From an uncultured bacterium (GTDB taxonomy: Bacteria; Planctomycetota; UBA1135; GCA-002686595), in NCBI GenBank assembly GCA_902826945.1, contig CADEGS010000025.1, positions 1 to 31,080 on the forward strand: a stretch of DNA of 31,080 nt, read 5' to 3'. Made by a program: the position numbers and the translations under genes. Positions 476-26,479 of this stretch are shown here, one piece after another (within the stretch, counting starts at the first letter, position 1; each line of letters opens with the position of its first letter). The notes beneath the pieces were generated by a model. That model saw only the letters and a list, made by a program, of their open reading frames with translations, was not told where the DNA came from and searched no databases.

Positions 476-1645
476 CTACGGCCGGTCCCAAACATCGACC
501 GGCTTGGTGTCCCGCCGGTACATCTCGGGAACCACCCACCAGGTGTCGCCATATTTGCGCGACGTGGGCCAGATCTCGTCGAGCGAGTTGGCGTCATAGA
601 GCGTCCCACCCTTCATTACGTACTGAATGTTGGCCGTCTGCCGGATGTTCTCGAGCGGATTGCCGTTGAGCACCATCAAATCGCCCAGTTTGCCAACCGT
701 AATCGACCCGAGATCCCCCTCGAGGCCAAGGAAGGTGGCCCCGTGCATGCTGGCGATCTCGAGCGCGGTCATGTTGCCGGTGGCCTTGGCCGCCATCCAC
801 ACGTCCCAGTGCGAACCCAGCCCGGCCTGTTGTCCGTGCGAACCGATGGCGCTGTACCCGCCGGCCGCCACGATGTCCGCGATCTGCTGGGCGATGATGT
901 CCTTCGAATAGTCCGTTTCCGGCCGCATGATGAACCGACGGGTGTGGGGAATCAACTGCCGCCACGGGACCCATCGCTGCTGCTTCGGGTCGAGCCAGAT
1001 CGGGCTCTCCTGCCAGAAGTACTCCTCGTTCCACGCCCCGAACCCGCTGACCAGCGGCGTGTGAGAGTAAACGTAGCGCGCCTTGCCAAGAAAGGTCGTC
1101 ACGTCGGCGTAGAGCGGCGAGTGCACGGTGACGTGCTCCCCGCCGGTATGGCCGTCCATGACCATGCCGAGCTTGTGGCCAAGGTCCATGCTGCCTTCGG
1201 CCGTGGCTCGCATGCCGAGGCGGCGGGCGGCTTCCACCGACCACTGGCGCGCTTGCCGGGTGGGCTGAAGGTACTGCTTGAGCAGCAGGGCGCCCCAAGA
1301 TTGCCGGCGAGCCACCTCCTTGAGCGCCACCTCGAGGCTCGTCACCTCGCTGGTGCCCGGGGAGTCACCGTCCGCCCGCCAGCCCACGCCGCGCACCTGG
1401 CCCACCAGGTAGGCACCGTCGCCGACCTCAAAGCCCGCCACGTCCCCCTCGCGCGCCGGCGAGCCGCGCGGCAGGTCGTGCAGCGTGGCGAGGTAGCAGC
1501 CCGGCCCGCCGGGCAGCACGTGCTGGATCGTCACCGACAGCACGCGCGGGCGCGACCAGCTCGGCGTGAGGTGCACCCGCGTCGGGCGCGGCCACCTGAG
1601 CCCGCGGAGCTCGGGCAGCGCGCCCCCGCCCCGGCGGAGGATCAC
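476..1645 (-). CDS. Fusion ORF: phage N-terminus joined in frame to the C-terminal part of a host amidohydrolase
   Basis: One 389-codon frame starts with GTG inside a GTGA overlap with the gene at 1642-2202. Residues about 1-95 are Pro/Arg/Gly-rich with phage-like codon use (LSVTIQHVLPGGPGCYLATL, EVGDGAYLVGQVRG) and may be a small virion protein. From about residue 105 the protein is an unmistakable amidohydrolase: SWGALLLKQYLQPTR, VTAEG-type strand (RATAEGS), GYSAIGSHGQQAGLGSH, MHGATFLGLEGDLGS, VGKLGDLMVLNGNPLENI. These C-terminal signatures are those of the secreted Gemmatimonadota/Acidobacteriota-type amidohydrolases. The enzyme's N-terminal half, including its HxH motif, is missing, so this is not a working enzyme. 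The simplest reading is that the phage end lies inside the host gene and the frames happen to match. A misassembled contig is the alternative. Confidence 0.7.
   Translation of the reverse strand: MILRRGGGALPELRGLRWPRPTRVHLTPSWSRPRVLSVTIQHVLPGGPGCYLATLHDLPRGSPAREGDVAGFEVGDGAYLVGQVRGVGWRADGDSPGTSEVTSLEVALKEVARRQSWGALLLKQYLQPTRQARQWSVEAARRLGMRATAEGSMDLGHKLGMVMDGHTGGEHVTVHSPLYADVTTFLGKARYVYSHTPLVSGFGAWNEEYFWQESPIWLDPKQQRWVPWRQLIPHTRRFIMRPETDYSKDIIAQQIADIVAAGGYSAIGSHGQQAGLGSHWDVWMAAKATGNMTALEIASMHGATFLGLEGDLGSITVGKLGDLMVLNGNPLENIRQTANIQYVMKGGTLYDANSLDEIWPTSRKYGDTWWVVPEMYRRDTKPVDVWDRP
1290..1400. other. Probable phage/host junction (prophage right boundary or assembly join)
   Basis: Within this interval the encoded protein changes from phage-type sequence to amidohydrolase sequence, and codons such as CAA and TCT that are rare in the phage genes begin to appear. 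The exact base cannot be fixed because only one side of the element is visible. I saw no clear TG...CA transposable-phage end and no tRNA-type attachment site. If the phage is integrated, the attachment core should lie here. Confidence 0.5.
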
Positions 1646-2202
1646 GGGTAGGGGCTCGCGGCGCAGCCGTTGAGGCGCGCGCTGCCGGTGTTCGCGCCGC
1701 TCGCCGCGGTCTCCGCCACCGCGCCCACCAGGCGCAGCCCGCTCGAGGGCGTCAGCCGGCACACCTTCGCCACGTCGTCCCACCACAGCGCCGCGCCCTG
1801 CTGGTTCCAGGCCTCGCCCGGCAGCTTCGCGACCGTGCGCACCCCGAGCACGAACATCGTGGCCGGCAGCCCGGCGCTCGCGCCGATCGAGACCACGCCG
1901 AACAGGTCGCCCACGAGCAGCGACTGCCCGGAGATGCACCCGCCGGCCGGGCTCGTGAACGTGAACGAGTGCGAGACCAGCTGGTTGGCGCGGTTCGCGA
2001 TGATCGAGAGCAGCGCCTGCCCCACCTGGTAGGGCTGGGTCGGGTCGGGCCCGATGCTGCCGAGCGCCAGCACGTAGTTCAGCTCGTCGTTGATCTGCTG
2101 GAACCACGCGGCGTCCAGGAACGTCCCGCGCAGGCCCGCCGGCGCGTTCCCGTTGTCGAACTTGCCGGCCACGTTGCCGGGGAAGGGGATCGTTCCGTAC
2201 AC
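1642..2202 (-). CDS. Virion protein with a DUF2190-like C-terminal domain
   Basis: 186 residues from a GTG start. Residues 1-75 (YGTIPFPGNVAG, AAWFQQINDELNYVLAL) resemble the short N-terminal segments of phage tail fibre or appendage proteins. Residues 90-186 read as a DUF2190 (capsid cement / decoration) domain: SLLVGDLFGVVSIGASAGLPAT, LGVRTVAKLPGEAW, QGAALWWDDVAKVCRL, LVGAVAETAASGANTGSARL. This is the second such domain in the genome; the first (23665-23994) sits beside the major capsid gene. Here the domain lies in the tail-fibre region and is attached to a different N-terminus. It overlaps the downstream fusion ORF by GTGA and follows the gene at 2217-2576 by 14 bases. The role is probably structural; the assignment rests on pattern memory only. 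Confidence 0.65.
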   Translation of the reverse strand: MYGTIPFPGNVAGKFDNGNAPAGLRGTFLDAAWFQQINDELNYVLALGSIGPDPTQPYQVGQALLSIIANRANQLVSHSFTFTSPAGGCISGQSLLVGDLFGVVSIGASAGLPATMFVLGVRTVAKLPGEAWNQQGAALWWDDVAKVCRLTPSSGLRLVGAVAETAASGANTGSARLNGCAASPYP

Positions 2203-2576: not shown

Positions 2577-3148
2577 TGGAGCGCCGGCGCGCCGGGGTCG
2601 CCCGGGCCGGGGTCGGGCGCGCTCGCCCCCAGGGCCTCGGCGTAGGCGGTCAGGAACGCCAGCGCGCCGCGCACGCCGACCAGGCCGTAGCGCACAGAGT
2701 CGTCGCGCTGGTCCCCGAGCTCGGTGAGCAGCTGGCGCACGGCCGTCAGACCGGCGCGCGCGTAGCCGAGCATCAGGCCGAGAGAGCGCGGGTCCTCGCC
2801 GTCGCGGATCGCCTGGAGCACGCCGGCGTCGGCCCGCTCGAGCGCCTCGCGCACCACGTCCACCACGCGCGCGCGCGTCGCGTCGCCCTCCGCCAGCGCG
2901 AGCTCGCGCTCGTCCAGCAGGAACTCCACCCCGCCGCGCAGCGCGCCGTGCGCGATCGGCAGCGTCATGTCCTGCCCCGAGCCCTCGGGCGAGCTCGCCC
3001 GGCAGCTGAGCAGCGCGCCCGCCGCGAACACGAGCGCGAACGGCAGGACGAAGATGCCCAGCGCCTCGCACAGGCAGGGGATGAGCGCGCGCACGCGCAC
3101 GCGGCGGGGGAGCGGGAGGGCGGGGCCTTGGTCTCGGTGGTCGGTCAT
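2573..3148 (-). CDS. Membrane-anchored or lipoprotein-like phage protein, unknown function
   Basis: 191 residues, ATG start within an ATGA overlap with the upstream gene. A basic N-terminus (RRVRVRALIP) is followed by a hydrophobic segment at about residues 25-49 ending in LLSC, which fits either a single transmembrane anchor or a lipobox. The remainder is helical and charged (GGVEFLLDERELALAEGDATRARVV, VVREALERADAG), ending in a Pro/Gly/Ala tail. Orientation and hydrophobicity suggest an envelope protein of the infected cell. A spanin-type or superinfection-exclusion role is possible but unproven. No known family is recognised. Confidence 0.6.
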   Translation of the reverse strand: MTDHRDQGPALPLPRRVRVRALIPCLCEALGIFVLPFALVFAAGALLSCRASSPEGSGQDMTLPIAHGALRGGVEFLLDERELALAEGDATRARVVDVVREALERADAGVLQAIRDGEDPRSLGLMLGYARAGLTAVRQLLTELGDQRDDSVRYGLVGVRGALAFLTAYAEALGASAPDPGPGDPGAPALQ

Positions 3149-3600
3149 GGCACGTCCACGGTCGGGGCTGGGAGGTCGAGGGCGAGCTCCACCGCGGAGC
3201 CGGCCACGATCGCGAGGGGCGCACGAGGTGGTACCCACTGCCCCCCCGCGTTGTACAGCACGCGCAGGAGGAGCTGGCGGGTGTAGCGCGTCCCGAAGGG
3301 CGAGAGGATGCGCAGCTGCGCCTTCCACAGGCCCGCCTGGTCGAGGTCCGTCGCGCTGAGCTGGTAGCGCGCCGCCCACGTCCCCGACGTCGCCGGCGGC
3401 ACGGCCGGCTCGAGGATCGCCTCCGCCACGCGCGTCGCCGTCGTCCCGTCGGGCCGCTCGAGGATCAGGTCGAGGCGGTGCGACAGCCGCACGTGCTCGC
3501 TCAGCGCCTCGCCCAGCGGACCCACGGGCGGCACGACGAGCGGCGCCTCGTCCCCGATCTGGAACTCCGGGATGGCGTAGGGGTTGGCGTTGACCGTCAC
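3145..3600 (-). CDS. BppU-like baseplate/fibre N-terminal-domain protein with a C-terminal LELALDLPA tag
   Basis: 151 residues, GTG start in a GTGA overlap with the giant repeat protein. The body (FQIGDEAPLVVPPVGP, LDLILERPDGTTATRV, YQLSATDLDQAGLWKAQLRI) resembles the beta-sandwich that begins many phage baseplate upper and fibre proteins (BppU/DUF2479-type: GD.AP start, DG turn, 'DLDQAGLW' edge). The last residues, GSAVELALDLPAPTVDVP, are a single copy of the repeat found 16 times in the neighbouring 1513-residue protein. The corresponding DNA at about 3171-3195 is a diverged copy of the shared repeat core. The placement of one repeat at the very end suggests it is a tag or docking strand for the partner made immediately before it. 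Confidence 0.65.
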   Translation of the reverse strand: MTVNANPYAIPEFQIGDEAPLVVPPVGPLGEALSEHVRLSHRLDLILERPDGTTATRVAEAILEPAVPPATSGTWAARYQLSATDLDQAGLWKAQLRILSPFGTRYTRQLLLRVLYNAGGQWVPPRAPLAIVAGSAVELALDLPAPTVDVP

Positions 3601-6600
3601 GGGTGCAGCCGGTTCGTCTCGCCGCTCGCCGGCGAGGGCAGCCTAGCGCCGCCGGGGTCGGGTTGGGAGCGCACGCTGAACCAGCCCCCGAAGTCGAGGC
3701 GCAGCTCGACCGGCGCCCCGGCTGCCACGTTGATCGGCACGTCCACGTGCCCGTCGGCGGGGTAGTCGAGGCGCAGCTCGAGCGCTGGCGGCGTCGCGAA
3801 GAGTGCGAGCGCCGAGGCCGGCAGGTCGAGCGCGAGCTCGAGCGCCGGGCCGGCGTCGAGCAGCACGAGCACCACCGGGGAGGGGAGCTCCACCAGGAGC
3901 TCGAGCGCGGGCGGCACGATGAGCTGCGGCGCGACCAGGACGGGCGCCGGGAAGTCGAGCCCGAGCTCGAGCGGCGGCGGCTTGAGCACGCCCGCCACGA
4001 GCACGTCGCCGGCGGGCAGGTCGAGCGCGAGCTCGAGCGCCGCGGCCGCCACCACGACCGCGACCGACACCGAGCCCGCCGGGAAGTCGAGCGCGAGCTC
4101 GAGCGGCTGGCCGACGAGCGCGAACGAGAGCGTGGGCGCGGGCAGGTCGAGCGCGAGCTCGAGCGGCGGTGGCTGCAGCGGCGCCTGCCCCGCCATCACC
4201 GTCGAGGGCGGCAGGTCGAGCGCGAGCTCGAGCGCCGCGGCCTGCACGCGCAGCTCGACGTCCACGTGCGGCGCGGGCAGGTCGAGCGCGAGCTCGAGCG
4301 GGGGCGGCAGGAGCACGGCCTGCAGGACCGCCGGCGCCGGCAGGTCGAGCGCGAGCTCGAGCGGCCAGGGGTAGAGCGTGAGCGGGCCCGCGACCACGAC
4401 GAGCGCGGGCGGCAGGTCGAGCGCGAGCTCGAGCGGCGGCGGCGTCAGCCGGCCCGGGACCACGACCAGGCACGCCGGCAGGTCGAGCGCGAGCTCGAGC
4501 GGCGGGGGGAACAGCGTGGAGCTCAGCTCCTCGAGCCACGCGAGCGCCAGGTCGGCGAAGGGGTGCCCCTCGATCGAGCCGGAGTAGAGGTCGGTGTGCT
4601 CGGTCGTGCCGAGCAGGTTCGCCGAGCTGCTGAACGCGAGCTTGCCGCTGCGCAGGTTGCGCTCGCCGGGGAGGGCGAGCAGGTCCTGGCGCAGGATCGC
4701 GGCGAACCACCCCGCGTGCGTCAGCGTCAGCGCGTTCGACAGCGTGGGGTCGCCGTCCACGTCGCGCGAGAAGTCCGCGCTCTCCAGGTCGTCGTCGGTG
4801 GCGAGCAGGAGCGCCACGTCGCGCGCGCGCGCGCCCTCCTCGCGGATCACCTTGGACGCGCTCGAGGCCTCGAGGACGCCGGCGGCCACGGTCGCGAGCG
4901 AGGCCGCCGGCGCGCCGCCGGCGTTCGGCCAGTGCGCGCCCGAGACCGTCTGCACGAACGCCTCCCACCACGCGACCGGCGCGAGCGCGAGGATCCCGCG
5001 CACGCGCAGGTCGCGCGACGCCTGGCGGCTCTTGAGCGTGGGGAAGCCGTACCAGCGCCCGAGGATCGCCTGCGCCGCGGCCTCGTGCCCCGACGACACG
5101 CCGCACCAGTACACGCGCTCGAGGTCGGCCTCGAGCTCGCGCGCGTGCTCGGCCACGAACTGCAGCGCCTGCGCGCAGTCCTTCTCGGGGAAGTGCACGT
5201 CGGGGTCGTTCCAGCGCGTCGTGCCGGGCAGGCCGAACAGCTCGGCCGCGTCGGGCACGCCGGGCGGGTCGATACCCGACGTCCCCACCGACAGCACGGC
5301 CCCGCCCTGCTCGACCCACCGGAACAGGATCTCCCGCGCCGAGTCGATCACGGCGAGCGGCGGCTCCTCGAAGAACCGCCCCGCGTTGCTGAACACGATG
5401 AGTGGGCGCCCGGAGGTGGGCGGCGACGTGGCGGGGTTCGTGAACAGGTTGGCGACCTTGCGCGGGTGCGGCGAGGTCGTCTCCTGCGGCGCGTAGGAGC
5501 GCTCCGTCGCGCCGGTCGGGTGCCACGCGATCGAGAGCGCCGAGGCCGGCAGGTCGAGCGCGAGCTCGAGCGCGGGCGGCGTGAGGACGAGCTCGGCGAG
5601 CTGCTCCTCGATCCAGTCGAGCACCGCCACCGCCATCGGCGCGGACACCTCGACGTCGCCCGTGAACGTCCCGTCCTCGCTGCCCACGAGCGAGCCCATC
5701 TCGCTCTCGTGCCCGTTCCCCACGTAGAACCGCACGCGCGGCGCGATGCCTGGGAACAGCGTGCGCACCCGGTCCACGAGCAGCGCCGAGAACCACAGGT
5801 CGTGCAGGTTCGCGCCGCCCGGGCCGGTGCCGAGCGCGCCCGCGAGCGTGGGCGTCCCGTCGGGGTTGAGGGAGTAGTCGGTGCTGCCGGCGGGCTCGTC
5901 GCACGCCACGAGGATCGGCGTGGTGGCGGCCAGCGCGCCGGGCAGCAAGATGCGGCGCGCGGGGCTCGCGGCGTCGAGCAGCGCGGGGTCGGCGTCGCCG
6001 AGGGAGCTCGCGTCGAACCCCGTGGACTGCGACTGCCAGCGGTGCGAGATGCCCTGGTTGTACGAGGGCGTGAACGCGGGGAACCACGCGAGCGGGTTCC
6101 ACAGGACGGCGCCGCGGATCTTGCTGCTCGCGCGCAGCTGCGGCGAGCCCGTGGCGCGCGCGAGGTCGGGCCCGAGCGCGGAGAACGCGATCGCGCACGC
6201 GCCCGCGCTCGTGCCCAGCGCGAAGATCGCGCCCGGGTCGAGCGGGTAGGCCGCCTGCGTCTTGATCCACCCGACGCTGTACCACCACTCCTCGTCCGAC
6301 ACCGGGTAGTTGACGTCCTCCCAGCGGCCGCTCGGGTGCCCCGGCGGGTAGAACCAGAAGATGCTGCCCGCCTCGAGGCCCTGGCCGTTGATGCCGGCGA
6401 ACACGACCGCGACGCCGCGCGCGAGCGCCTCGAGGAAGACCGCGTGCGCCGGCGTGGCGGGGTTGAACGCCGCGGGCGGCGAGCCGCCGGCCCAGCCCGC
6501 GAGCGGCGTGACGAGCAGGGACGGCCAGCCGCCCGCCGGCGGCGCGCCCTCGGGCAGCCACACGTGCAGGAAGGCGAGGCCCGGCGGCGTGGTCGTGCGC

Positions 6601-8138
6601 TCGGGCGGCAGGTAGTTGATCGGCGCCGGCGAGCTCGGGTGGATCAGCACCGTCGAGGGCGGCAGGTCGAGCTCGAGCTCCACGGCGGGGCCGGCGTCGA
6701 GCGCGATCGCCGTGGCGCCGGCGGGGAACGCGAGCCACAGCTCGAGCGGCGGCGGGTAGAGCGTGCGCGCGTCGAACAGCGAGTCGAGGTTCAGGCCGTG
6801 GTGCGTCGTCGCGATCCCGCGGAAGGTCGCCAGCGGGTCGTCGTTCCCCGTCAGCTCGTCGTGCCGCAGCCCGATGTACTCGCCCGCCTCGGCGCCCAGG
6901 TGCACCGTCGCCGCGCAGATCGCGCCCTCGACGCTCGGCACGCCCCAGCCGAGGTTTGAGCGCGCGCTGTGGTCTTTCGGCAGCGGCGCCCCGAGCACGT
7001 CGGCCGCCAGCGCGCGCTCGTGGCGCAGCCGGTGGTAGAGCGGCAGGGTGGAACTCCCGCCGGAGCGGTAGCAGTCCACGAGCCCGACCGAGAGCACGCG
7101 CCCGGCCTTCGCGAGCTTCACCCGGCCCGGCCCCGGCTCGTGCACGAACGCGGCGGAGTCCACGCGCTCCGCGTTCTCGCACGTCACGACGAGCTCGTCG
7201 TCGGCGCGCTGCGCGTCGCTCGGCTTGCGCAGCAGGAAGGCCTCGGCCGAGCTCGGCAGCTTGACCGCCTGGAACGAGGAGCCCAGCCGCAGCGGGATCG
7301 CCTGCACCCCGTTCCCGTTCTCCATGCGCACGTCGAGCCAGCAGACCTCGTTAGGGCCCGCGGTGTTCACGAGCAGCACGAGGTTCACGCTGGCGAGGCC
7401 CGCGCCGCCGGGGATCGCGCCCGTCGAGCGCACGATGCGCGCGCCGTTCTGGTTGAACGCCACCTCGACGTTGCACGGGTTCGACCCGCCCAGCGAGAGG
7501 AACGAGACGCACGCGCACACGAGGTAGAGGCCCTGGGGCCCGAACAGCACGAACTGCGGCGCGCCGCCCGACCAGACGAAGGTGCCGGGCAGCGGGTTCG
7601 TGGCCCCGTCCCACTGGAGCGCGGCGTAGGTCGTCGTCGCGGCGGGGAAGTTGCCGGCCGCGCGCGAGAGGTAGATGCGCGGCCACGACGAGTCCAGGCG
7701 CAGGAGCGAGAGCGCGGAGGTCCCGCCGAGCAGCTGCAGGAGCGAGCTGCCGGCGTCCACGAGCGTCGAGGTGACGTTCAGCAGCTGGCCCGGGGTGGCG
7801 GGCTCGATGATGCACCCGCCCGAGAGGTACAGGGCCTGGTGGGCGCTCGCGCCGCGCGCCGCGTGCCCCGAGCTCCTGCCCTGGTCGAGCGCCGCGCCGT
7901 CGAGGCGGACGACGCTGAGCGCCTGGGCCGGGTCGCTCCCGGTGCCGCCGCCCAGGCCGGCGGAGTACAGGAGCAGGTGGGGCCCCGCCTCGGCCAGCGT
8001 GTAGCCGCTGCCCCCGACGGAGAACGCCGCGGCGTCCTCCGTCTCGAGGTCGGTCCACGTGAACGGCGCCTCGGCGTGCCCGTAGGCGGCACCCGTGTCG
8101 AGGAGCCGGCGGTAGATCGCGAGGGAGCCGGCCGGCAC
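3597..8138 (-). CDS. Giant tail-associated protein with two alpha/beta-hydrolase-like domains and sixteen LELALDLPA repeats
   Basis: 1513 residues; GTG start chosen because GAGGGG precedes it by seven bases. Residues 1-450 look like virion beta-sandwich domains (the stretch PQGLYLVCACVSFLS resembles C1q/TNF-like jelly rolls). Two repeat copies follow at about 460-490. Domain A (about 500-845) has LGTSAGACAI with Ser644 as the G-x-S-x-G nucleophile, a candidate acid in VACDEPAG (Asp747) and GNGHESEM (His810). One repeat copy sits at about 850. Domain B (about 870-1205) has CGVSSGHEAA (Ser1015), an Asp cluster in LLATDDDLES and His1181 or His1192. Residues 1207-1500 are 13 tandem repeats of 21-24 residues, consensus PPPLELALDLPAPxVxV. 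The fold suggests an esterase or deacetylase acting on host surface polysaccharide (inference). It lies among fibre genes, 18 bases after a virion-like gene. Confidence 0.75.
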   Translation of the reverse strand: MPAGSLAIYRRLLDTGAAYGHAEAPFTWTDLETEDAAAFSVGGSGYTLAEAGPHLLLYSAGLGGGTGSDPAQALSVVRLDGAALDQGRSSGHAARGASAHQALYLSGGCIIEPATPGQLLNVTSTLVDAGSSLLQLLGGTSALSLLRLDSSWPRIYLSRAAGNFPAATTTYAALQWDGATNPLPGTFVWSGGAPQFVLFGPQGLYLVCACVSFLSLGGSNPCNVEVAFNQNGARIVRSTGAIPGGAGLASVNLVLLVNTAGPNEVCWLDVRMENGNGVQAIPLRLGSSFQAVKLPSSAEAFLLRKPSDAQRADDELVVTCENAERVDSAAFVHEPGPGRVKLAKAGRVLSVGLVDCYRSGGSSTLPLYHRLRHERALAADVLGAPLPKDHSARSNLGWGVPSVEGAICAATVHLGAEAGEYIGLRHDELTGNDDPLATFRGIATTHHGLNLDSLFDARTLYPPPLELWLAFPAGATAIALDAGPAVELELDLPPSTVLIHPSSPAPINYLPPERTTTPPGLAFLHVWLPEGAPPAGGWPSLLVTPLAGWAGGSPPAAFNPATPAHAVFLEALARGVAVVFAGINGQGLEAGSIFWFYPPGHPSGRWEDVNYPVSDEEWWYSVGWIKTQAAYPLDPGAIFALGTSAGACAIAFSALGPDLARATGSPQLRASSKIRGAVLWNPLAWFPAFTPSYNQGISHRWQSQSTGFDASSLGDADPALLDAASPARRILLPGALAATTPILVACDEPAGSTDYSLNPDGTPTLAGALGTGPGGANLHDLWFSALLVDRVRTLFPGIAPRVRFYVGNGHESEMGSLVGSEDGTFTGDVEVSAPMAVAVLDWIEEQLAELVLTPPALELALDLPASALSIAWHPTGATERSYAPQETTSPHPRKVANLFTNPATSPPTSGRPLIVFSNAGRFFEEPPLAVIDSAREILFRWVEQGGAVLSVGTSGIDPPGVPDAAELFGLPGTTRWNDPDVHFPEKDCAQALQFVAEHARELEADLERVYWCGVSSGHEAAAQAILGRWYGFPTLKSRQASRDLRVRGILALAPVAWWEAFVQTVSGAHWPNAGGAPAASLATVAAGVLEASSASKVIREEGARARDVALLLATDDDLESADFSRDVDGDPTLSNALTLTHAGWFAAILRQDLLALPGERNLRSGKLAFSSSANLLGTTEHTDLYSGSIEGHPFADLALAWLEELSSTLFPPPLELALDLPACLVVVPGRLTPPPLELALDLPPALVVVAGPLTLYPWPLELALDLPAPAVLQAVLLPPPLELALDLPAPHVDVELRVQAAALELALDLPPSTVMAGQAPLQPPPLELALDLPAPTLSFALVGQPLELALDFPAGSVSVAVVVAAAALELALDLPAGDVLVAGVLKPPPLELGLDFPAPVLVAPQLIVPPALELLVELPSPVVLVLLDAGPALELALDLPASALALFATPPALELRLDYPADGHVDVPINVAAGAPVELRLDFGGWFSVRSQPDPGGARLPSPASGETNRLHP
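3680..4504 (-). repeat. Coding tandem repeat array, 13 units of about 63-72 bp
   Basis: Minus-strand units encode PPPLELALDLPAP followed by 8-10 variable hydrophobic residues. An identical 25-bp core is found on the plus strand at 3820-3844, 4015-4039, 4141-4165, 4210-4234, 4276-4300, 4339-4363, 4411-4435 and 4477-4501, with a ninth exact copy at 5548-5572. Diverged copies lie near 3689, 3761, 3890, 3950, 4081, 6660 and 6728, plus 3171 and 12331 in other genes. Synonymous positions are conserved within the core, while the segments between cores vary freely. Confidence 0.9.
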
Positions 8139-8156: not shown

Positions 8157-8594
8157 TCAGGTCAGGCCGATCGCGCCGGTGGGGCTGATCTGCACCGTCA
8201 CCGTCGAGCCGTTCGCGTTGAAGGGGAACCCGCCCTGGTCCTGGAACATGACCAGCGGCGAGAGCGCGAAGGTGGCGTTCTTGTCGATCAGCAGGTAGCC
8301 GACGCACGAGCGCGTGCCGGCCCCCAGGTTCACGAACGCGACGTCCGCGAAGTCGAGGAAACCGCGGTCGTTGGCGTCGTCCTCGTTGTAGGTCTCCGAG
8401 GCGACGGCGGTGCCCACGCCCTGCGTGTAGTTCGCGCCGTCGTACTCGTCGAGCGTGGTCAAGTCGCCGATCGTCTCGGCGTCCTCCTCGGTGTCCGCGG
8501 TCGTGTTCGACATCACGAGCACCATGCGGAGGTCGGCGGACGAGAGCGCCGCGGCCAGTGCGGCGGTCTTCCAGGGCGTGAACGCGTGCGCCAT
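8157..8594 (-). CDS. Phage virion-like protein, probable head/tail decoration or fibre protein
   Basis: 145 residues from an ATG with GGGAG upstream. It opens with AFTPWKTAALAAAL, then an acidic segment (TADTEEDAETIGDLTTLDEY) and a beta-rich remainder (GFLDFADVAFVNLGAG, GYLLIDKNATFALSPLVMF, NGSTVTVQISPTGAIGL). That layout, with DLTTLDEYDGANYT followed by a beta sandwich and a final 'I..TGAIGL' strand, resembles small structural proteins of tailed phages that I know only as hypothetical virion proteins. It is the first minus-strand gene after the divergent region with the plus-strand island, so it may carry its own promoter for the fibre operon. Confidence 0.65.
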   Translation of the reverse strand: MAHAFTPWKTAALAAALSSADLRMVLVMSNTTADTEEDAETIGDLTTLDEYDGANYTQGVGTAVASETYNEDDANDRGFLDFADVAFVNLGAGTRSCVGYLLIDKNATFALSPLVMFQDQGGFPFNANGSTVTVQISPTGAIGLT

Positions 8595-8840
8595 CGCGAG
8601 AGAGCTCCCAGGGGTCCGGCTCGAGGCCGGGGGTGTTCGGTTCGGGTTGTGGCCCGGGCGCCCCCCGTGGTTCCTGGAACCGGGGAGGACTGGCCCGCTC
8701 GCGAGAGACCGCAGGCGAGGGTAGGATCCGCGCGGCCGAGGGTCCACAGCGCGGGGGATGGTCCCACTCGCTGGGAACGCGGGAGCGTCGAAGGGGGCGC
8801 GCCGAGAGAGGGGACCCGAGGCCCGAAGGGAGACGCCGCC
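8595..8840. promoter_or_regulatory. Divergent intergenic region, likely promoters for both flanking operons
   Basis: At 246 bases this is the largest gap in the window, and the flanking genes point away from each other, so at least two promoters are expected here. I cannot identify convincing -35/-10 boxes in this GC-rich DNA. It contains an interrupted inverted repeat at 8663-8685 with a 6+1+6 core GGTTCCTGGAACC (8669-8681) extended by CCCC/GGGG, which could be an operator or a hairpin. Shine-Dalgarno sequences lie at both edges: GGGAG before 8594 (minus) and AAGGGAG before 8841 (plus). Confidence 0.5.
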
Positions 8841-9404
8841 ATGTCCCGACGCAAGGGATCGCAGCACGTGTCCGCCACCTGGTCGCTCGGCTCCATCGCC
8901 CTCGACCCATGCAGCAGGAACGGGGACGGCGCGATCCGGCGCCCCTCGCGCCTGCGCCTTGGCCTGCAGACCGACGCGAACCAGCCCGAGCAGCCCTGCC
9001 GGTTCGCCGCGGCCGTCGCCGGCGAGGTGCTGAACTGCACGATCGAGCCGCTGGGCGAGGGGGCGGACGTCCCCAGCTGGTCCGGGCAGGCTCGCCTGTC
9101 GGGCTTTCGTATCGACCCTCCGCGCGGCGAGGACACCTCCGCCCGCGTGGCCGCCCGGCTCGTGCTCCACGCCGAGACGCCCTCGGCGGAGCCCGGGATC
9201 GAGAGCGTCGAGACGTTCGGCGCCCTGTTCGCCCTGCGCGCCTCGATGGCGTCGATCGGCGCCGTCTCCGCGCGCGTGTCCATGCGCGTCGCGCAGCCCG
9301 GCCTCGACTTCCCCGACGAGGGCGAGGGGGACGAGCTCGAGGCCGAGGAGCCGCCCACGCCCTCGGCCGGTCGCCGGCGGCGCGGGAAGGGGTCGGGGTC
9401 GTGA
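8841..9404 (+). CDS. Unknown phage protein, first gene of the opposite-strand island
   Basis: 187 residues. The ATG at 8841 follows AAGGGAG by nine bases. The N-terminal part (VSATWSLGSIALDP, RLRLGLQTDANQPEQP) and middle (RLSGFRIDPPRGEDTSARVAA) look like a soluble mixed alpha/beta protein. The C-terminus is strongly acidic (DFPDEGEGDELEAEEP) and then switches to a basic tail (GRRRRGKGSGS). No family is recognised. It is read on the plus strand against the direction of all structural genes, and its stop overlaps the next gene's start as GTGA, so the three island genes form one short operon. The charged tail could contact nucleic acid, but that is only a guess. Confidence 0.6.
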   Translation: MSRRKGSQHVSATWSLGSIALDPCSRNGDGAIRRPSRLRLGLQTDANQPEQPCRFAAAVAGEVLNCTIEPLGEGADVPSWSGQARLSGFRIDPPRGEDTSARVAARLVLHAETPSAEPGIESVETFGALFALRASMASIGAVSARVSMRVAQPGLDFPDEGEGDELEAEEPPTPSAGRRRRGKGSGS

Positions 9405-11063: not shown

Positions 11064-12284
11064 CTAGAGCTCCGCGTCCGCCGTCCAGTGCCCCTGCATG
11101 ATCGAGACCACCGAGGGCGTGCCGGTCGCGCCCTGCGTCGGCCGCCCAGTGATCGAGCGGCCCGGGAGGCTCGTGCTGGCGATCGAGCGCGACGTGTCGG
11201 TGCCCGAGGACACCACGTGCTCGTTCAGGGCGTCGGCCGCGCCGGTCGCTGGGTTGTACCAGCGCACGGTCGGGACCGCGCGCTTCTCCACGCGGAAGCG
11301 CTTGGCCATCGGCTGGTACAGCGAGACGCCCGACGCGTCGAACGCGACCGCGGCCGAGTGCTCGCCCACGTGCGAGACGGCGCCGGGGGCCACGTCGATC
11401 GGGTAGGACTTCTCGAAGTAGCGCGCGCAGCGCTGCTCCTCGAACGCCGGCGGCGGCAGCACGTAGTTCGTGGCGACCGCGCCGGGTTCCAACAAGAACG
11501 CGGTGCCCCTGAACTGGAAGGTGGAGAGCGGCGGGAAGATCAGGGCCACCTCGAGGTAGTGACCCGTCCCGAGCGTCTTCCCGACCACGCTGGGCAGGTC
11601 CGCGACGAAGGCGACGCGCCCCCAGGCCCCCGTGTTCGGGATCACCGTCGCGACCGGCGAGGGCGAGACGAGCACGCTGGACGAGCCGCCCACGCCGAAG
11701 TACTGGCGCAGCAAGATCGAGCAGAGGAGCGGCGCGGGCGCGCCGGTGGGCAGCCGCGCGGCGAAGCTGAACGTGGCCCGCCGGCCGCTCAGGGTGGTCA
11801 CGCTCTCGATGCGCTGCAGCAGGATCGGGTAGTTCGCGCCGCCGTCGGTGGGCGTGGTCTGGTCGAAGCGGATGATCGTGGGCGGGATCGGGTCGAACGC
11901 GTCCAACAAAAACGCGTCGGCCGTCGTGTCCGTCGTCCCGAGCGAGATGGTCGCCACGCCCGAGTCGCCGGCGCTCGCCAGCCAGCGGTCGGCCGTGTAC
12001 TGAAACGCCGTCCCGATCACGAGCGAGGAGCCGCGCTGCCACACCAGGCCCGAGCTGTTCAGCAGGCGATTCCTGGCGAAGCCCGAGCCGGCCAGGATCG
12101 CCTTGCTCAGCTGGAAGAGGTCGGCGGGGTTGAGCGCCTGGCCGCTGGCCTCGACCGCGTGCGCGATCTCCTCCTGCCACACGTTGCAGTCCTCGGCGCG
12201 CACCAGGGTCGGCGGCTGCCCGATCCCGTCGTCCGCGTTCACGAACAGGTTGCCGACGTGGTGCGGGGAGGTCGTTCGGTTCAC
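11064..12284 (-). CDS. Tail fibre protein
   Basis: 406 residues, GTG start nine bases after the gp48-like gene, the position of the fibre gene in Mu-like tails. The N-terminal part (NLFVNADDGIGQPPTLVRAEDCNVWQ is a contiguous region at residues 12-37) resembles the baseplate-attachment segment of fibres. The C-terminal third contains CARYFEKSYPIDVAPG and the closing beta-rich stretch (GVSLYQPMAKRFRVEKRAVPT), a signature I associate with phage tail-fibre or receptor-binding C-termini. The middle (RRATFSFAARLPTGAPAP) looks like a carbohydrate-binding beta sandwich. The protein presumably trimerises and contacts the host surface. No separate fibre-assembly chaperone gene of the Mu U type is evident next to it. 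Confidence 0.75.
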   Translation of the reverse strand: MNRTTSPHHVGNLFVNADDGIGQPPTLVRAEDCNVWQEEIAHAVEASGQALNPADLFQLSKAILAGSGFARNRLLNSSGLVWQRGSSLVIGTAFQYTADRWLASAGDSGVATISLGTTDTTADAFLLDAFDPIPPTIIRFDQTTPTDGGANYPILLQRIESVTTLSGRRATFSFAARLPTGAPAPLLCSILLRQYFGVGGSSSVLVSPSPVATVIPNTGAWGRVAFVADLPSVVGKTLGTGHYLEVALIFPPLSTFQFRGTAFLLEPGAVATNYVLPPPAFEEQRCARYFEKSYPIDVAPGAVSHVGEHSAAVAFDASGVSLYQPMAKRFRVEKRAVPTVRWYNPATGAADALNEHVVSSGTDTSRSIASTSLPGRSITGRPTQGATGTPSVVSIMQGHWTADAEL

Positions 12285-12293
12285 GTGGACACC

Positions 12294-13001
12294 TCAGAGG
12301 GAGCCGAGCACGGTGACGAGCCCAGGCGGGAAGTCGAGCACGAGCTCGAGCGGGGGCGGGTAGAGGATCGACCAGGGCCCGGCCTCCGCCGGCGGCAGGT
12401 CGTACACGTGGTGCGCGACGGTGTGCGCGGGCTTCCAGGAGCCCACCTCGCACTCCAGCACGAGGTTGTTCCAGTCGGTGATGCGCTGGCCGCACGTGCT
12501 GTCGCCGCAGGTCGCGAACACCGGCGAGGAGGCGGCCGCGTGCACGTAGAACGTCCAGACCGAGGCCTCGTTCCACAGGCCGTCGCCGCAGCTCGAGACG
12601 CCGCAGCGGAAGGGCCGCGGCTCGAACACCTCCACCTGGAACCCGAGCGCCGAGGCGAGCCACACGAGGTCCGCCGCGCTCTGCTCCACGCCGCGGCGCA
12701 GGCGCGCGAGGATCGCGAGCCGGCGCAGGGACAGGGTGGGCAGCGGCTCGCCCAGGCACTCGCCCGGCAGCCCGAGCGTGCGCTCCCACTCCTCGAGCAG
12801 CTCGTAGGTCGTGCGCGGGTCCGACTCGTCCACCAGGTCGAGCAGGCGCAGCTCGACGTCGGCGAGCACGCCGGCGAGCGCCTGCAGGAGCGCCTCGAAC
12901 CGGCTGCCGGGCTCCACGCGCAGGAGCCGGCCGCGAGGCATGAGCGCCTCGAGCACGCGGCCCGCTCGCACCACGTCCGCCTCGGTGCGCAGCCTGGTCA
13001 C
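12294..13001 (-). CDS. Baseplate protein, Mu gp48-like (DUF2313), with a C-terminal LELVLDFPP tag
   Basis: 235 residues, GTG start in a GTGA overlap with the baseplate J gene. The core matches the DUF2313 family that follows gp47 in Mu-type tails: EALLQALAGVLADVELRLLD, DPRTTYELLEEWERTLGLP, LATLRRLAILARL-type helix (SLRRLAILARLRRG), and the paired cysteine motifs FRCGVSSCGDGL and FATCGDSTCGQRI. The protein would link the wedge to the fibre. Unusually, it ends with YPPPLELVLDFPPGLVTVL, a copy of the repeat present 16 times in the giant protein at 3597-8138; its DNA at about 12331-12355 is also a near copy of the shared core. Confidence 0.85.
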   Translation of the reverse strand: MTRLRTEADVVRAGRVLEALMPRGRLLRVEPGSRFEALLQALAGVLADVELRLLDLVDESDPRTTYELLEEWERTLGLPGECLGEPLPTLSLRRLAILARLRRGVEQSAADLVWLASALGFQVEVFEPRPFRCGVSSCGDGLWNEASVWTFYVHAAASSPVFATCGDSTCGQRITDWNNLVLECEVGSWKPAHTVAHHVYDLPPAEAGPWSILYPPPLELVLDFPPGLVTVLGSL

Positions 13002-14062
13002 GGGATCGCCGAGAAGGTGCTGGTCCCGAGGACGTGGATCTCGCCCGAGCCGGCGGTCACGTCCGCCAGCGGCGACACGAGCACGTGGTCCGCCTCTCCG
13101 TACGCGTTGCTGATCGCCTGGCGCACGTGGGAGATGGGCACGCGCCGTCCGGGTCCGCCCTCCGCGCGCAGCAGGTCCACGAGCGCGTCCTCGATCGCCT
13201 GGCGCACGACGGCGGTGTCGGGCTCGATCTGCACCTCGACGTCGAGCGGGAGCGCGAGCGGTGCGAACACGGTGAGCGAGACGCCCACCGGCCGGCGCTC
13301 CTCGACGTAGGCCAGCACCTCCGCCACCTTGCCCGCGCCCGGGATGGGGCCCAGCGGGTCGTCGTCGATCGCGAAGGCGAGCCCCACGTGCCCGAGCTGC
13401 CCGAGGTAGACCGGGAACGACCAGGCGCGCGTGACGCCGGGCACCTCGAGCGCCCAGCGCACGTACACCTCGGCGCCCTGCGGCGGCTCGCGCAGCCGGC
13501 GCAGCACGCGGTCGCGCAGCTGGTTGTCGGTCTCGGCGTCGGCCCCGAGCTCGAACCCGCCCGCGCCCACCTCGGCCGCGGAGGTGATGCCGAGCACGGG
13601 GGCGACGGCGGTGAGGCCCGTACCCGCGGCCACGTTGCCGCTCGCGGCGCCGACGACCGCGCGCGCCGCGAGCTCCACCTGGAAGCTGGGCGAGGTGATC
13701 GCGCCGCTCGCGGTGGTCTCGTACTCGAACCCGTCCGCGCGCCGCACCACGGCGCCGACGGGTACCACCGTGCCCTCGACGCCGTTGAAGATCACAGTCC
13801 CCACGGAGCGCTCGGCCGACTTGCGGGCGATCCCGTAGCGCTCGGACGCGCGCTCGAGGAACGAGAGCTCGGCGGTCTCGGGGAACAGCTGGTCGGCCAC
13901 CTGCGCGACGTGCCCGTGCAGGTGGTGCACGTAGGCGGCCTCCGCGTGCGCCAGCGCGGGCAGGATGCCGCGCGGGAGCAGGGGCCCGGTCTGCAGCCTC
14001 GCCTCGAGGTCCCCCACGAGCCGGGCGCGCAGGTCCGCGAGGGTGGGGCGGGTGAAGGGCAT
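12998..14062 (-). CDS. Baseplate wedge protein, Mu gp47 / P2 gpJ-like (Baseplate_J)
   Basis: 354 residues; ATG preceded by GGAGGA at seven bases. It matches the Baseplate_J family along its length: MPFTRPTLADLRARLVGDLEAR at the start, AYVHHLHGHVAQVADQLFPETAE, LERASERYGIARKSAERSVG, the VPVGAVVRRADGFEYETT strand, ETDNQLRDRVLRRLREPPQG and VTRAWSFP. Such proteins form the wedges around the central spike that open on contraction. Length agrees with Mu gp47 (about 360 residues). It follows the gp46-like gene by 15 bases and overlaps the gp48-like gene as GTGA, reproducing Mu order 46-47-48. Confidence 0.93.
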   Translation of the reverse strand: MPFTRPTLADLRARLVGDLEARLQTGPLLPRGILPALAHAEAAYVHHLHGHVAQVADQLFPETAELSFLERASERYGIARKSAERSVGTVIFNGVEGTVVPVGAVVRRADGFEYETTASGAITSPSFQVELAARAVVGAASGNVAAGTGLTAVAPVLGITSAAEVGAGGFELGADAETDNQLRDRVLRRLREPPQGAEVYVRWALEVPGVTRAWSFPVYLGQLGHVGLAFAIDDDPLGPIPGAGKVAEVLAYVEERRPVGVSLTVFAPLALPLDVEVQIEPDTAVVRQAIEDALVDLLRAEGGPGRRVPISHVRQAISNAYGEADHVLVSPLADVTAGSGEIHVLGTSTFSAIP

Positions 14063-24112: not shown

Positions 24113-26479
24113 CTAGCTGCCGGTCGAGCGGTACCAGGCGATGAACTCGACGATCGCCAGGGCGACGTCGTGCACGGCGCGGAACTCCATGCCGAGCACC
24201 TGGAAGCCCTCGCGGCTCGAGAGCTGCGGGCCGCTGGTGCCGCGCAGGTAGGCGCGCTCGAACACCGGGCAGTCCATCGGGTCGCAGGTGCCGTACCACT
24301 GCACGGACGAGGTGTCCTGCAGTCGCGGCTCGCTGATCACGCCCTTGATCTGGCGGATCAGCGGGTTCACGCCGGTCGCGGTCTGCGGCGTCAGCGCGGC
24401 CACGAACTGCAGGGCCTTGGTCTCGAGCGCCGGCGGCACGACGAGGTACCCCATGTTCAGGCGAATGTGCTCGCCCTGGAGCCCGAGCTGCATGCGCAGC
24501 TTCTCGAGCCACAGGTCGAGGCCCGTGCCCGCGGTGCCGACGCCCAGGGCGCCTGTGCCGACGTTGCGGTGCGCCGCGTTGAACAGCTGCACCCCGTCGC
24601 CCATCACGACGTTCCCGGTCACGAGGCCCCACGCGAGGTCCGACTCCTTCCGGCTCGCCGCGGCGCCGAAGCGGCTGGCGAGCCCGGTGAGCGCGCCCAG
24701 GTCGTCGTTCAGCATCGCCTGGCGCGTGAACGCGAGGATCTTGCTGTAGGTGCTGAGTGCGTAGGTCTCGGCCGAGTCCGGCAGCGAGCCGCGGCCGACC
24801 TCGCCGCTCTCCGGCACGAGCTCGAGGTCCGGCGCGTTGCCGAGCTGGATCCGCGTGAGCGGCTTGAAGTCGCGGGCGTCCACGTTGCGGGCCAGCGGCT
24901 CGAAGGTCCGCATCATCTCGTCGTAGGCCTGGCGCAGGCTCTTGTTCGCCAGGTTCGACAGGAGCGCGGCGAAGTCGGTAGTGCCGATGCCGCCGCCGAA
25001 GCTGCGTTCGGCGCCGCCCACGAGGTCCACGCCCCGGTAGCTGCGCTGCATCGCCACCTCGAGGATCTCGTCGGCCACCAGGTGGTCGGTGTTCACGCCG
25101 CGCAGGCGCAGGCACCGCTCCGCCAGCTCGACGATCGAGCGGCCCACGAGCGCGCGCGCGCCGTCGGCCGGGGCGACGCGTGCGCCCAGCCGGCCGTCGG
25201 CCCCGCGCGAGCGGATCCCGCCGCGCACGTCCAGCGCGTTGTCGATCGCGCGCCACACCTTGTCCGCCTCCGGCGTCACCACCTGCGAGTGCGCGGTGAG
25301 CCGGCCGGTGGACTCCATGCTGCGGGCCAGCACGAGCTCGACCGCCGCGGCGCGCGCGCTCTCGATCGGCGTCGAGCCGTCGATCCACGTGCGCACCTGC
25401 TCGGCCGGCAGCTGGAACCGCTGGCCGAGCTCCTGCAGCCCGAGCACGCGCGAGCGCTCGGCCGCCGTCGCGACGGCGAGCGATGCCTGGGCGTCGCTCG
25501 AGGCCGGCGCCGAGCGGGAGCCGGCGTGCGGCTGAGCGGCCGCCGGCGTCGCCGGCGGCGGATCCTGGGTCGCCGCGCGCGCCGCCGGCGAGGTCGCCGC
25601 GGCGGCGCCGGCGGCCGGCGGCGACGTCGCCGTGGTCGCCCTCGCCGCGCCCGCGGCGGTCGTCGCGCTGCTCGCGCCCTGGGCGGGGGCTTGGGCGCCG
25701 CCCTGCGCCGCGCCGCCGTTGGCGGCGGTCGGGCCACTGGCGCCGCTGTCGGCGCCGTTCTCCAGCTCCTCGTCCATCCTTCGTGCCTCGCTGTCGTAGA
25801 TCGTGCAGGTGGGGGCCGCCGCGAGGCTGCGCACGAGGTCGAACGCCTGGCGCAGGTCTTTCAGCCCGTGGTGATGTCCCCCGCTCGACTGAGAGCGGGT
25901 TCGGGCACGCCGGTCGAACGCGGCCGGCGTGAAGGCGATTTCGTAGGGCTCCCAGCGCGTCGCGCGCAGCACCCGGTAGCCGTCCCAGCTCGGGGTCGGC
26001 TGCGGCGTGACGTCCACGAGCTCGTGGTACAGGTAGCCCGGCGACACCTGGCGCAGGATGCCGCCGGCGATGTCGCGCCACAGAGAGTCCACGCGCTCGT
26101 CGCGGTCGCTGATCCGCATGAGCACGCGCGGCAGCCCGGCGGGTGGGATCCACGCCCGGACCACCACCCCGATCACCATTTCCAGCTCGGGGACGCCGCG
26201 GCGCGCGCGTTCGCGGTAGTGCGAGTCGGTCACCGGGGCGCCGCTGTTCAGGAGGTCGAGCACGAGCGCGCCGGGCTCGAGGGAGAGCTCCTCCCACACG
26301 CGCTCGCCCGGGATCAGGTCGTCCCGCAGCACGCGCTCGCCCGCGGTGAACTCGGCCTCGATCGTCCGCGCGTCGAGGTCGGCGGTGGCGAGGTCGAGCC
26401 GCGCCTCGCCGTGCCGGATCGGGGCCTCGAGCCGCCGCTGGAGCGTCCGCCGCGGCGCGCGTTTCAGGGCCTGGGCCAT
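24113..26479 (-). CDS. Prohead protease-major capsid protein fusion
   Basis: 788 residues, ATG start. Residues 1-190 are an HK97/Mu-type prohead protease: LLNSGAPVTDSHYRER (His87 the candidate base) and GILRQVSPGYLYHE (Ser146 the candidate nucleophile). Residues about 235-330 are an Ala/Gly/Pro/Thr-rich linker, followed by a helical scaffold-like region to about 395 (ERSRVLGLQELGQRFQLPAE). The major capsid part follows: ANKSLRQAYDEMMRTFEPLA, FKPLTRIQLGNAPDLELVPE, SKILAFTRQAMLNDDLGALTG, MGDGVQLFNAAHRN and, near the end, DCPVFERAYLRGTSGP. Fused protease-capsid genes are known in several phages; the mature shell is expected to be released by self-cleavage between linker and capsid domain. It follows the portal by 49 bases. 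Confidence 0.9.
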   Translation of the reverse strand: MAQALKRAPRRTLQRRLEAPIRHGEARLDLATADLDARTIEAEFTAGERVLRDDLIPGERVWEELSLEPGALVLDLLNSGAPVTDSHYRERARRGVPELEMVIGVVVRAWIPPAGLPRVLMRISDRDERVDSLWRDIAGGILRQVSPGYLYHELVDVTPQPTPSWDGYRVLRATRWEPYEIAFTPAAFDRRARTRSQSSGGHHHGLKDLRQAFDLVRSLAAAPTCTIYDSEARRMDEELENGADSGASGPTAANGGAAQGGAQAPAQGASSATTAAGAARATTATSPPAAGAAAATSPAARAATQDPPPATPAAAQPHAGSRSAPASSDAQASLAVATAAERSRVLGLQELGQRFQLPAEQVRTWIDGSTPIESARAAAVELVLARSMESTGRLTAHSQVVTPEADKVWRAIDNALDVRGGIRSRGADGRLGARVAPADGARALVGRSIVELAERCLRLRGVNTDHLVADEILEVAMQRSYRGVDLVGGAERSFGGGIGTTDFAALLSNLANKSLRQAYDEMMRTFEPLARNVDARDFKPLTRIQLGNAPDLELVPESGEVGRGSLPDSAETYALSTYSKILAFTRQAMLNDDLGALTGLASRFGAAASRKESDLAWGLVTGNVVMGDGVQLFNAAHRNVGTGALGVGTAGTGLDLWLEKLRMQLGLQGEHIRLNMGYLVVPPALETKALQFVAALTPQTATGVNPLIRQIKGVISEPRLQDTSSVQWYGTCDPMDCPVFERAYLRGTSGPQLSSREGFQVLGMEFRAVHDVALAIVEFIAWYRSTGS

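Follow-up and report, generated by a model that had tools for sequence, protein, structure and literature searches.

Tail esterases of phages and the P0001 locus

Tail-borne esterases are already known in phages as SGNH domains. The tail fibres of phages G7C (gp63.1) and Possum (gp66) and of Klebsiella and Acinetobacter phages carry a serine esterase domain on a tail protein, and some such fibres are reported to deacetylate surface polysaccharide (PMC9569702, PMC13123978, PMC11058221). The Possum enzyme is described as deacetylating O-polysaccharide (PMC9569702), and SGNH tail esterases were shown to be active for two Klebsiella prophage proteins (PMC13123978). The protein considered here, P0001 (1513 residues; 3597..8138, minus strand, from GTG at 8138 to TGA at 3597), is encoded in a 31,080-nucleotide stretch (contig CADEGS010000025.1; the window) from an uncultured bacterium of the Planctomycetota. 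It differs from the SGNH fibres in its alpha/beta-hydrolase fold, which occurs twice in tandem, set between short repeats, and no SGNH match was found for it in Pfam, PHROGs or NCBIfam. Alpha/beta-hydrolases as such are not new in phages, since a model of the second domain matches, by fold, proteins of Siphoviridae sp. ctBLh2, an uncultured Caudovirales phage, Gordonia phage Jabberwocky and Arthrobacter phage Seahorse (E 3.3e-6 to 7e-3; compared by name and length only). The tandem arrangement with repeats was not found in the titles and abstract openings listed by literature searches, and may nonetheless be in print. New here are the finding that two further proteins of this phage also carry the P0001 repeat unit, the codon-identical cores of this unit and a homologue, P0003. 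By analogy with the SGNH tail esterases, we read P0001 as an esterase for surface glycans that is carried on the tail by a stalk of beta-repeats, with the units as joints between cassettes and perhaps as docking strands, and consider this reading to have an even chance of being correct.

Two homologous hydrolase domains in series

The hydrolase domains D1 (about residues 496-852; 5583..6653, minus strand) and D2 (about residues 868-1210; 4509..5537, minus strand) are homologous, with 27% identity over 364 columns (E 7e-20). D1 is assigned by its match to Abhydrolase_3 in Pfam and its homology to D2 and P0003, and D2 by its homology to D1, the family profile and a fold model. An earlier note on this DNA had proposed two alpha/beta-hydrolase domains in series within a repeat framework, and the D1/D2 homology, the Pfam match and the D2 model bear this out. 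Whole P0001 reaches 26.8 bits against Abhydrolase_3 (PF07859), above the gathering score of 25 bits, while the single domains remain below it (18.3 and 16.2 bits). For BD-FAE (PF20434, gathering score 26.8 bits), both P0001 (24.7) and D2 (21.6) fall short. P0001 resembles Abhydrolase_3/BD-FAE esterases such as Thermogutta Est2 in fold, nucleophile elbow and Asp position, and differs from them in its BD-FAE score, in a poorly aligning C-terminal half and in the absence of the HGGG motif, at whose position (in 9-10 of 10 compared members of the hormone-sensitive-lipase family) D1 has PLAGW. A PDB sequence search with P0001 alone gave no match; a profile retrieved nine chains at E<=0.01 (best 4e-6), in the elbow region only.

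The D2 model shows the eight-stranded core of an esterase-like fold, as had been predicted for both domains; D1 gave no usable model. In model numbering, strand 137-147 is followed by the Ser at 148 and a helix from 149, and Asp1115 follows strand 242-247, the position of the acid after strand 7. The D1 elbow was placed by alignment alone. The GxSxG motifs seen earlier around Ser644 and Ser1015 are present at residues 642-646 and 1013-1017, and a third lies at residues 87-91. Shuffles of the same protein contain 0.87 such motifs on average and 5% of them reach three, so that GxSxG by itself was dropped as proof of a hydrolase.

The residues Ser644, Asp747, Asp754 and Asp760 of D1 align with Ser1015, Asp1115, Asp1122 and Asp1128 of D2 and with Ser252, Asp355, Asp362 and Asp368 of P0003, as do His699/1069/307 and His779/1141/383 (D1/D2/P0003). 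On the minus strand, the codons of D1 lie at 6207-6209 (Ser644), 5898-5900 (Asp747), 5802-5804 (His779) and 5709-5711 (His810), and those of D2 at 5094-5096 (Ser1015), 4794-4796 (Asp1115), 4716-4718 (His1141) and 4596-4598 (His1181). While the motifs, repeat counts and domain homology of the earlier note stood, its conserved-looking pair His810/His1181 did not: His810 aligns with Ser1172 in D2 and Trp415 in P0003, and His1181 with gaps. In the D2 model, His1181 occupies the canonical place, a loop that follows the last strand of the core, but this stretch, like that of His1141, has a predicted local distance difference test score (pLDDT) under 50.

A repeat unit with a codon-identical core

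The unit has the consensus PPPLELALDLPAPxVxV and comprises roughly 22 residues. A profile built from 15 P0001 units recognises 16 in this protein, two before D1, one between the domains and 13 after D2, in agreement with the layout first described (one or two copies before each hydrolase, 13 after the second). The weakest is the last (5.1 bits), and a regular expression also counts 16, compared to 0.008 in shuffles. The core of unit 1 is diverged (LELWLAFP, residues 465-472; 6723..6746), unit 2 reads VELELDLP (residues 486-493; 6660..6683), and unit 3, between the hydrolases, is exact (residues 857-864; 5547..5570). The C-terminal array of 13 units covers residues 1211-1490 (3669..4508) with a period of 20-24 residues; all lie on the minus strand. 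The hydrophobic alternation L-E-L-A-L-D-L, followed by V-x-V, suggests that each unit forms two beta-strands.

All nine LELALDL units of P0001 are encoded by the same 21 nucleotides, CTC-GAG-CTC-GCG-CTC-GAC-CTG. Codon usage gives this string a probability of 0.03, and hence about 6e-13 for nine alike. The exact 23-nt core occurs nine times in the window, exclusively in P0001, and eight of the nine belong to the C-terminal array. When codons for the same residue are compared across 18 copies (the 16 of P0001 and the two on other proteins), the core reaches an identity of 0.84, against a mean of 0.62 and a maximum of 0.72 in 500 simulations; for the flanks the value is 0.57 (mean 0.50, maximum 0.63). 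Between D1 and D2 this identity is 0.58 over 102 codons, and it averages 0.66 for five-residue words that recur outside the core string, a set that still includes words touching units. Two unit pairs have 15 nt of 3' flank in common; two such pairs arose in none of 2000 simulations. The cores flanking D2 are identical despite the 27% identity of D1 and D2, which indicates that cores were homogenised or that cassettes moved between them. An inverted repeat in the core, TCGAGC-tcgc-GCTCGA, was seen by eye, and a hairpin role for it was considered and dropped.

Tail-fibre genes of T-even phages contain GxHxH boxes, short conserved repeats thought to guide domain exchange; a literature search listed no paper with this term. 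The likeness lies in short conserved repeats within a fibre gene; in P0001 the motif is different, the copies are many more, and enzyme-like domains lie in between.

The unit on two further proteins of the same phage

Among 22,248 open reading frames (ORFs) of the window and 88 loci, a partial survey of eight viral or phage loci and the 80 best of 221 confirmed genome loci, the unit profile matched beyond P0001 only the protein encoded at 3145..3600 (E 9e-6) and a gp48-type ORF (E 3.5e-4), with the next-best ORF at E 0.28. Both copies are C-terminal and both belong to the same phage. The former protein (151 residues, minus strand) looks Ig-like by eye and has no family match. Its GTG overlaps the TGA of P0001 (GTGA), and it ends in one unit, AVELALDLPAPTVDVP, with the core at 3169-3192.

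The latter (12294..13001, minus strand) is a Mu gp48-type baseplate wedge protein, with 75.3 bits against PF10076 over residues 18-194 (cut-off 37.4). In Mu, residues 133-155 of gp48 (baseplate wedge 3) are reported to dock the fibre N-terminus (PMC11915804). The protein resembles Mu gp48 in its PF10076 match and in its position directly after baseplate J, whose stop codon its GTG start overlaps, but differs in a C-terminal extension of about 33 residues with one unit (core 12327-12350, three mismatches to the 23-nt core). The gp48 proteins of two annotated relatives stop at KPAHTV..FxYG, without the extension, and none of the 79 plus-strand matches obtained with gp48 by tblastn across the 88 loci was seen to carry the unit. 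Searches of viral_contigs with repeat patterns gave four stretches with one match each, chance-like on translation, and further patterns gave 0 and 0.

Some gp48 homologues, for example in loci L009, L035, L045, L047 and L050, carry other extensions. Those at L009 11654, L047 11647-11668, L045 11776 and L050 11791 are short and C-terminal and contain internal repeats (TEDG, WDxG, CGxxECG), motifs that did not turn up at other places in these loci. Tags common to gp48 and other proteins were looked for in five other loci and were not seen beyond gp48.

Relatives of P0001

A D1+D2 profile retrieved a single homologue among 7999 scored candidates, P0003, with 511 residues and one hydrolase domain, which passes the Pfam cut-offs for PF07859 (30.1 bits) and PF20434 (29.7 bits). 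Searches of 5.8 billion proteins with P0001 returned only the protein itself among the 7990 candidates sharing most words, and relatives may be missed in one such search because the repeats use up words. Neither tblastn nor blastn found a relative of P0001 in 50,697 phage records, and viral_contigs gave one pattern stretch, with none confirmed. P0003 had no match in phages and plasmids and two stretches in viral_contigs, neither confirmed, and a D1+P0003 profile gave eight stretches in genome_contigs and ten in viral_contigs, again with none confirmed. The D1/D2/P0003 profile matched in 5 of 17 genomes (E<=0.01, best 4.6e-5), over 35-68 profile positions each, the better matches lying around the elbow.

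By eye, the ends of P0003 (about residues 40-100 and 460-510) resemble halves of an Ig domain, presumably of the He_PIG type, split by the hydrolase; this is a visual impression, and Pfam gave no Ig-type match for these ends at E<=1.

Gene context

The window contains a minus-strand phage cluster with a GC content of mostly 70-78%. The frame of P0001 has a GC content of 0.99 at codon position 3, compared to 0.75 for an overlapping plus-strand ORF. The cluster encodes small and large terminase, portal, capsid-protease and head closure proteins, followed by Mu-type sheath and tube, tape measure, hub, PAAR protein, baseplate J, gp48 and tail fibre; these families support the placement of 3597..8138 in a phage tail-gene region. 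The top-ranked named phages for baseplate J and sheath are the Bordetella phages PBb001, PBb002 and PY223 (43-44% identity), and a terminase search for related loci gave two viral loci, both distant. Baseplate J (Mu gp47 type) is located at 12998..14062 and the tail fibre (phrog_4492) at 11064..12284, both on the minus strand. The gene before P0001 is probably the phrog_644 part, from about 8600 down, of an upstream ORF (8157..9170, minus strand). The N-terminal region of P0001 (residues 1-460; 6759..8138, minus strand) may serve as an anchor, and it has one weak PHROG match at residues 435-465 (E 0.087).

Also on the minus strand, the protein encoded at 1642..2202 combines a phrog_1858 tail-fibre N-terminal region (residues 10-79) with a Phage_cement_2 head-decoration domain (residues 79-177). 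An amidohydrolase-like ORF at the cluster end (476-2107), host flank or cargo, has plasmid matches of at most about 37% identity. A 788-residue ORF (24113-26479) apparently fuses head maturation protease and major capsid protein. Between fibre and P0001, 9849-10283 and 10689-11060 encode small proteins with a spanin-/holin-type membrane look by eye and no family match.

A candidate tail esterase on a repeat stalk

P0001 may belong to the virion, as a tail protein of a prophage with a Mu-type tail; D1 and D2 would act as serine esterases removing acyl groups (acetyl or similar) from host surface glycans at adsorption, held out on a stalk of amphipathic beta-strand repeats. The unit would be a structural joint separating globular domains and its core DNA a homology handle for copying, exchange and homogenisation of units and domain cassettes, while the units ending gp48 and the next gene product may pair strands with the stalk and so link it to the baseplate. 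Nothing in the analysis supports the processive or dual-specificity action suggested earlier.

Several observations weigh against this proposal. No virion-protein marker was found in P0001, and no family matches residues 1-460 significantly. The candidates for the catalytic His after the last core strand, His810 and His1181, do not align, and the HGGG oxyanion motif was not found in P0001 when compared with the Abhydrolase_3-type family. The D2 model is of moderate quality (pLDDT 50.1), and an AlphaFold2 (AF2) model of D1, unit and D2 together, built from two sequences, reached a pLDDT of 29.8. The 5' flanks of the units are not shared more often than chance predicts (0 pairs against 0.09 expected), and the copy in the 3145 gene is encoded with different codons, so that DNA exchange is supported inside P0001 only. 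Docking by strand pairing is purely conjectural. Finally, no relative with the P0001 arrangement was found.

The missing HGGG motif and the non-equivalent His after the last core strand in D1, D2 and P0003 would also fit worn-down enzymes kept for glycan binding, which would make P0001 a non-catalytic receptor-binding fibre; we regard this as unlikely, since these three sequences, at 29-41% identity, still align at the Ser, at two His and at the Asp that follows strand 7. P0001 might instead be lysogeny cargo (a moron), made by the lysogen to alter the host surface or scavenge nutrients and not part of the virion. Its location beyond the fibre gene, near the cluster end and the amidohydrolase gene, and the lack of a known tail domain agree with this, but the common strand, the overlap of its stop with the next start (GTGA) and a unit that baseplate gp48 also carries argue against it, as does the absence of a signal peptide evident by eye, and such a role appears rather improbable. 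Tandem arrays commonly grow by slippage, and the identical cores could simply reflect recent tandem expansion with fast-changing spacers and no role of the core at the DNA level. The two unit pairs that match past the core favour such an expansion, yet the spacers differ widely while the cores are identical, codon identity falls at the core edges, and unit 3 has the same exact core although the 1-kb D2 separates it from the array. This explanation is possible, but we do not favour it.

The esterase proposal can be extended to a more specific one, which we hold only tentatively and think improbable as a whole: the unit as the standard joint of this phage, through which the 16-unit stalk would assemble with a baseplate and an accessory protein by strand pairing, with the 21-23-nt core as the recombination site for inserting, doubling and swapping enzyme cassettes. 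If true, this would represent a modular adhesin system encoded at the protein and DNA levels together. As the only homologue found, P0003 points to a region of tail-protein space that has been sampled little, and the shared repeat hints at the mounting and exchange of enzymes on the virus particle. Tandem hydrolases between repeats, together with a repeat shared with the gp48-type protein, would give a concrete and testable account of how phages gain new enzymes, double them and mount them.
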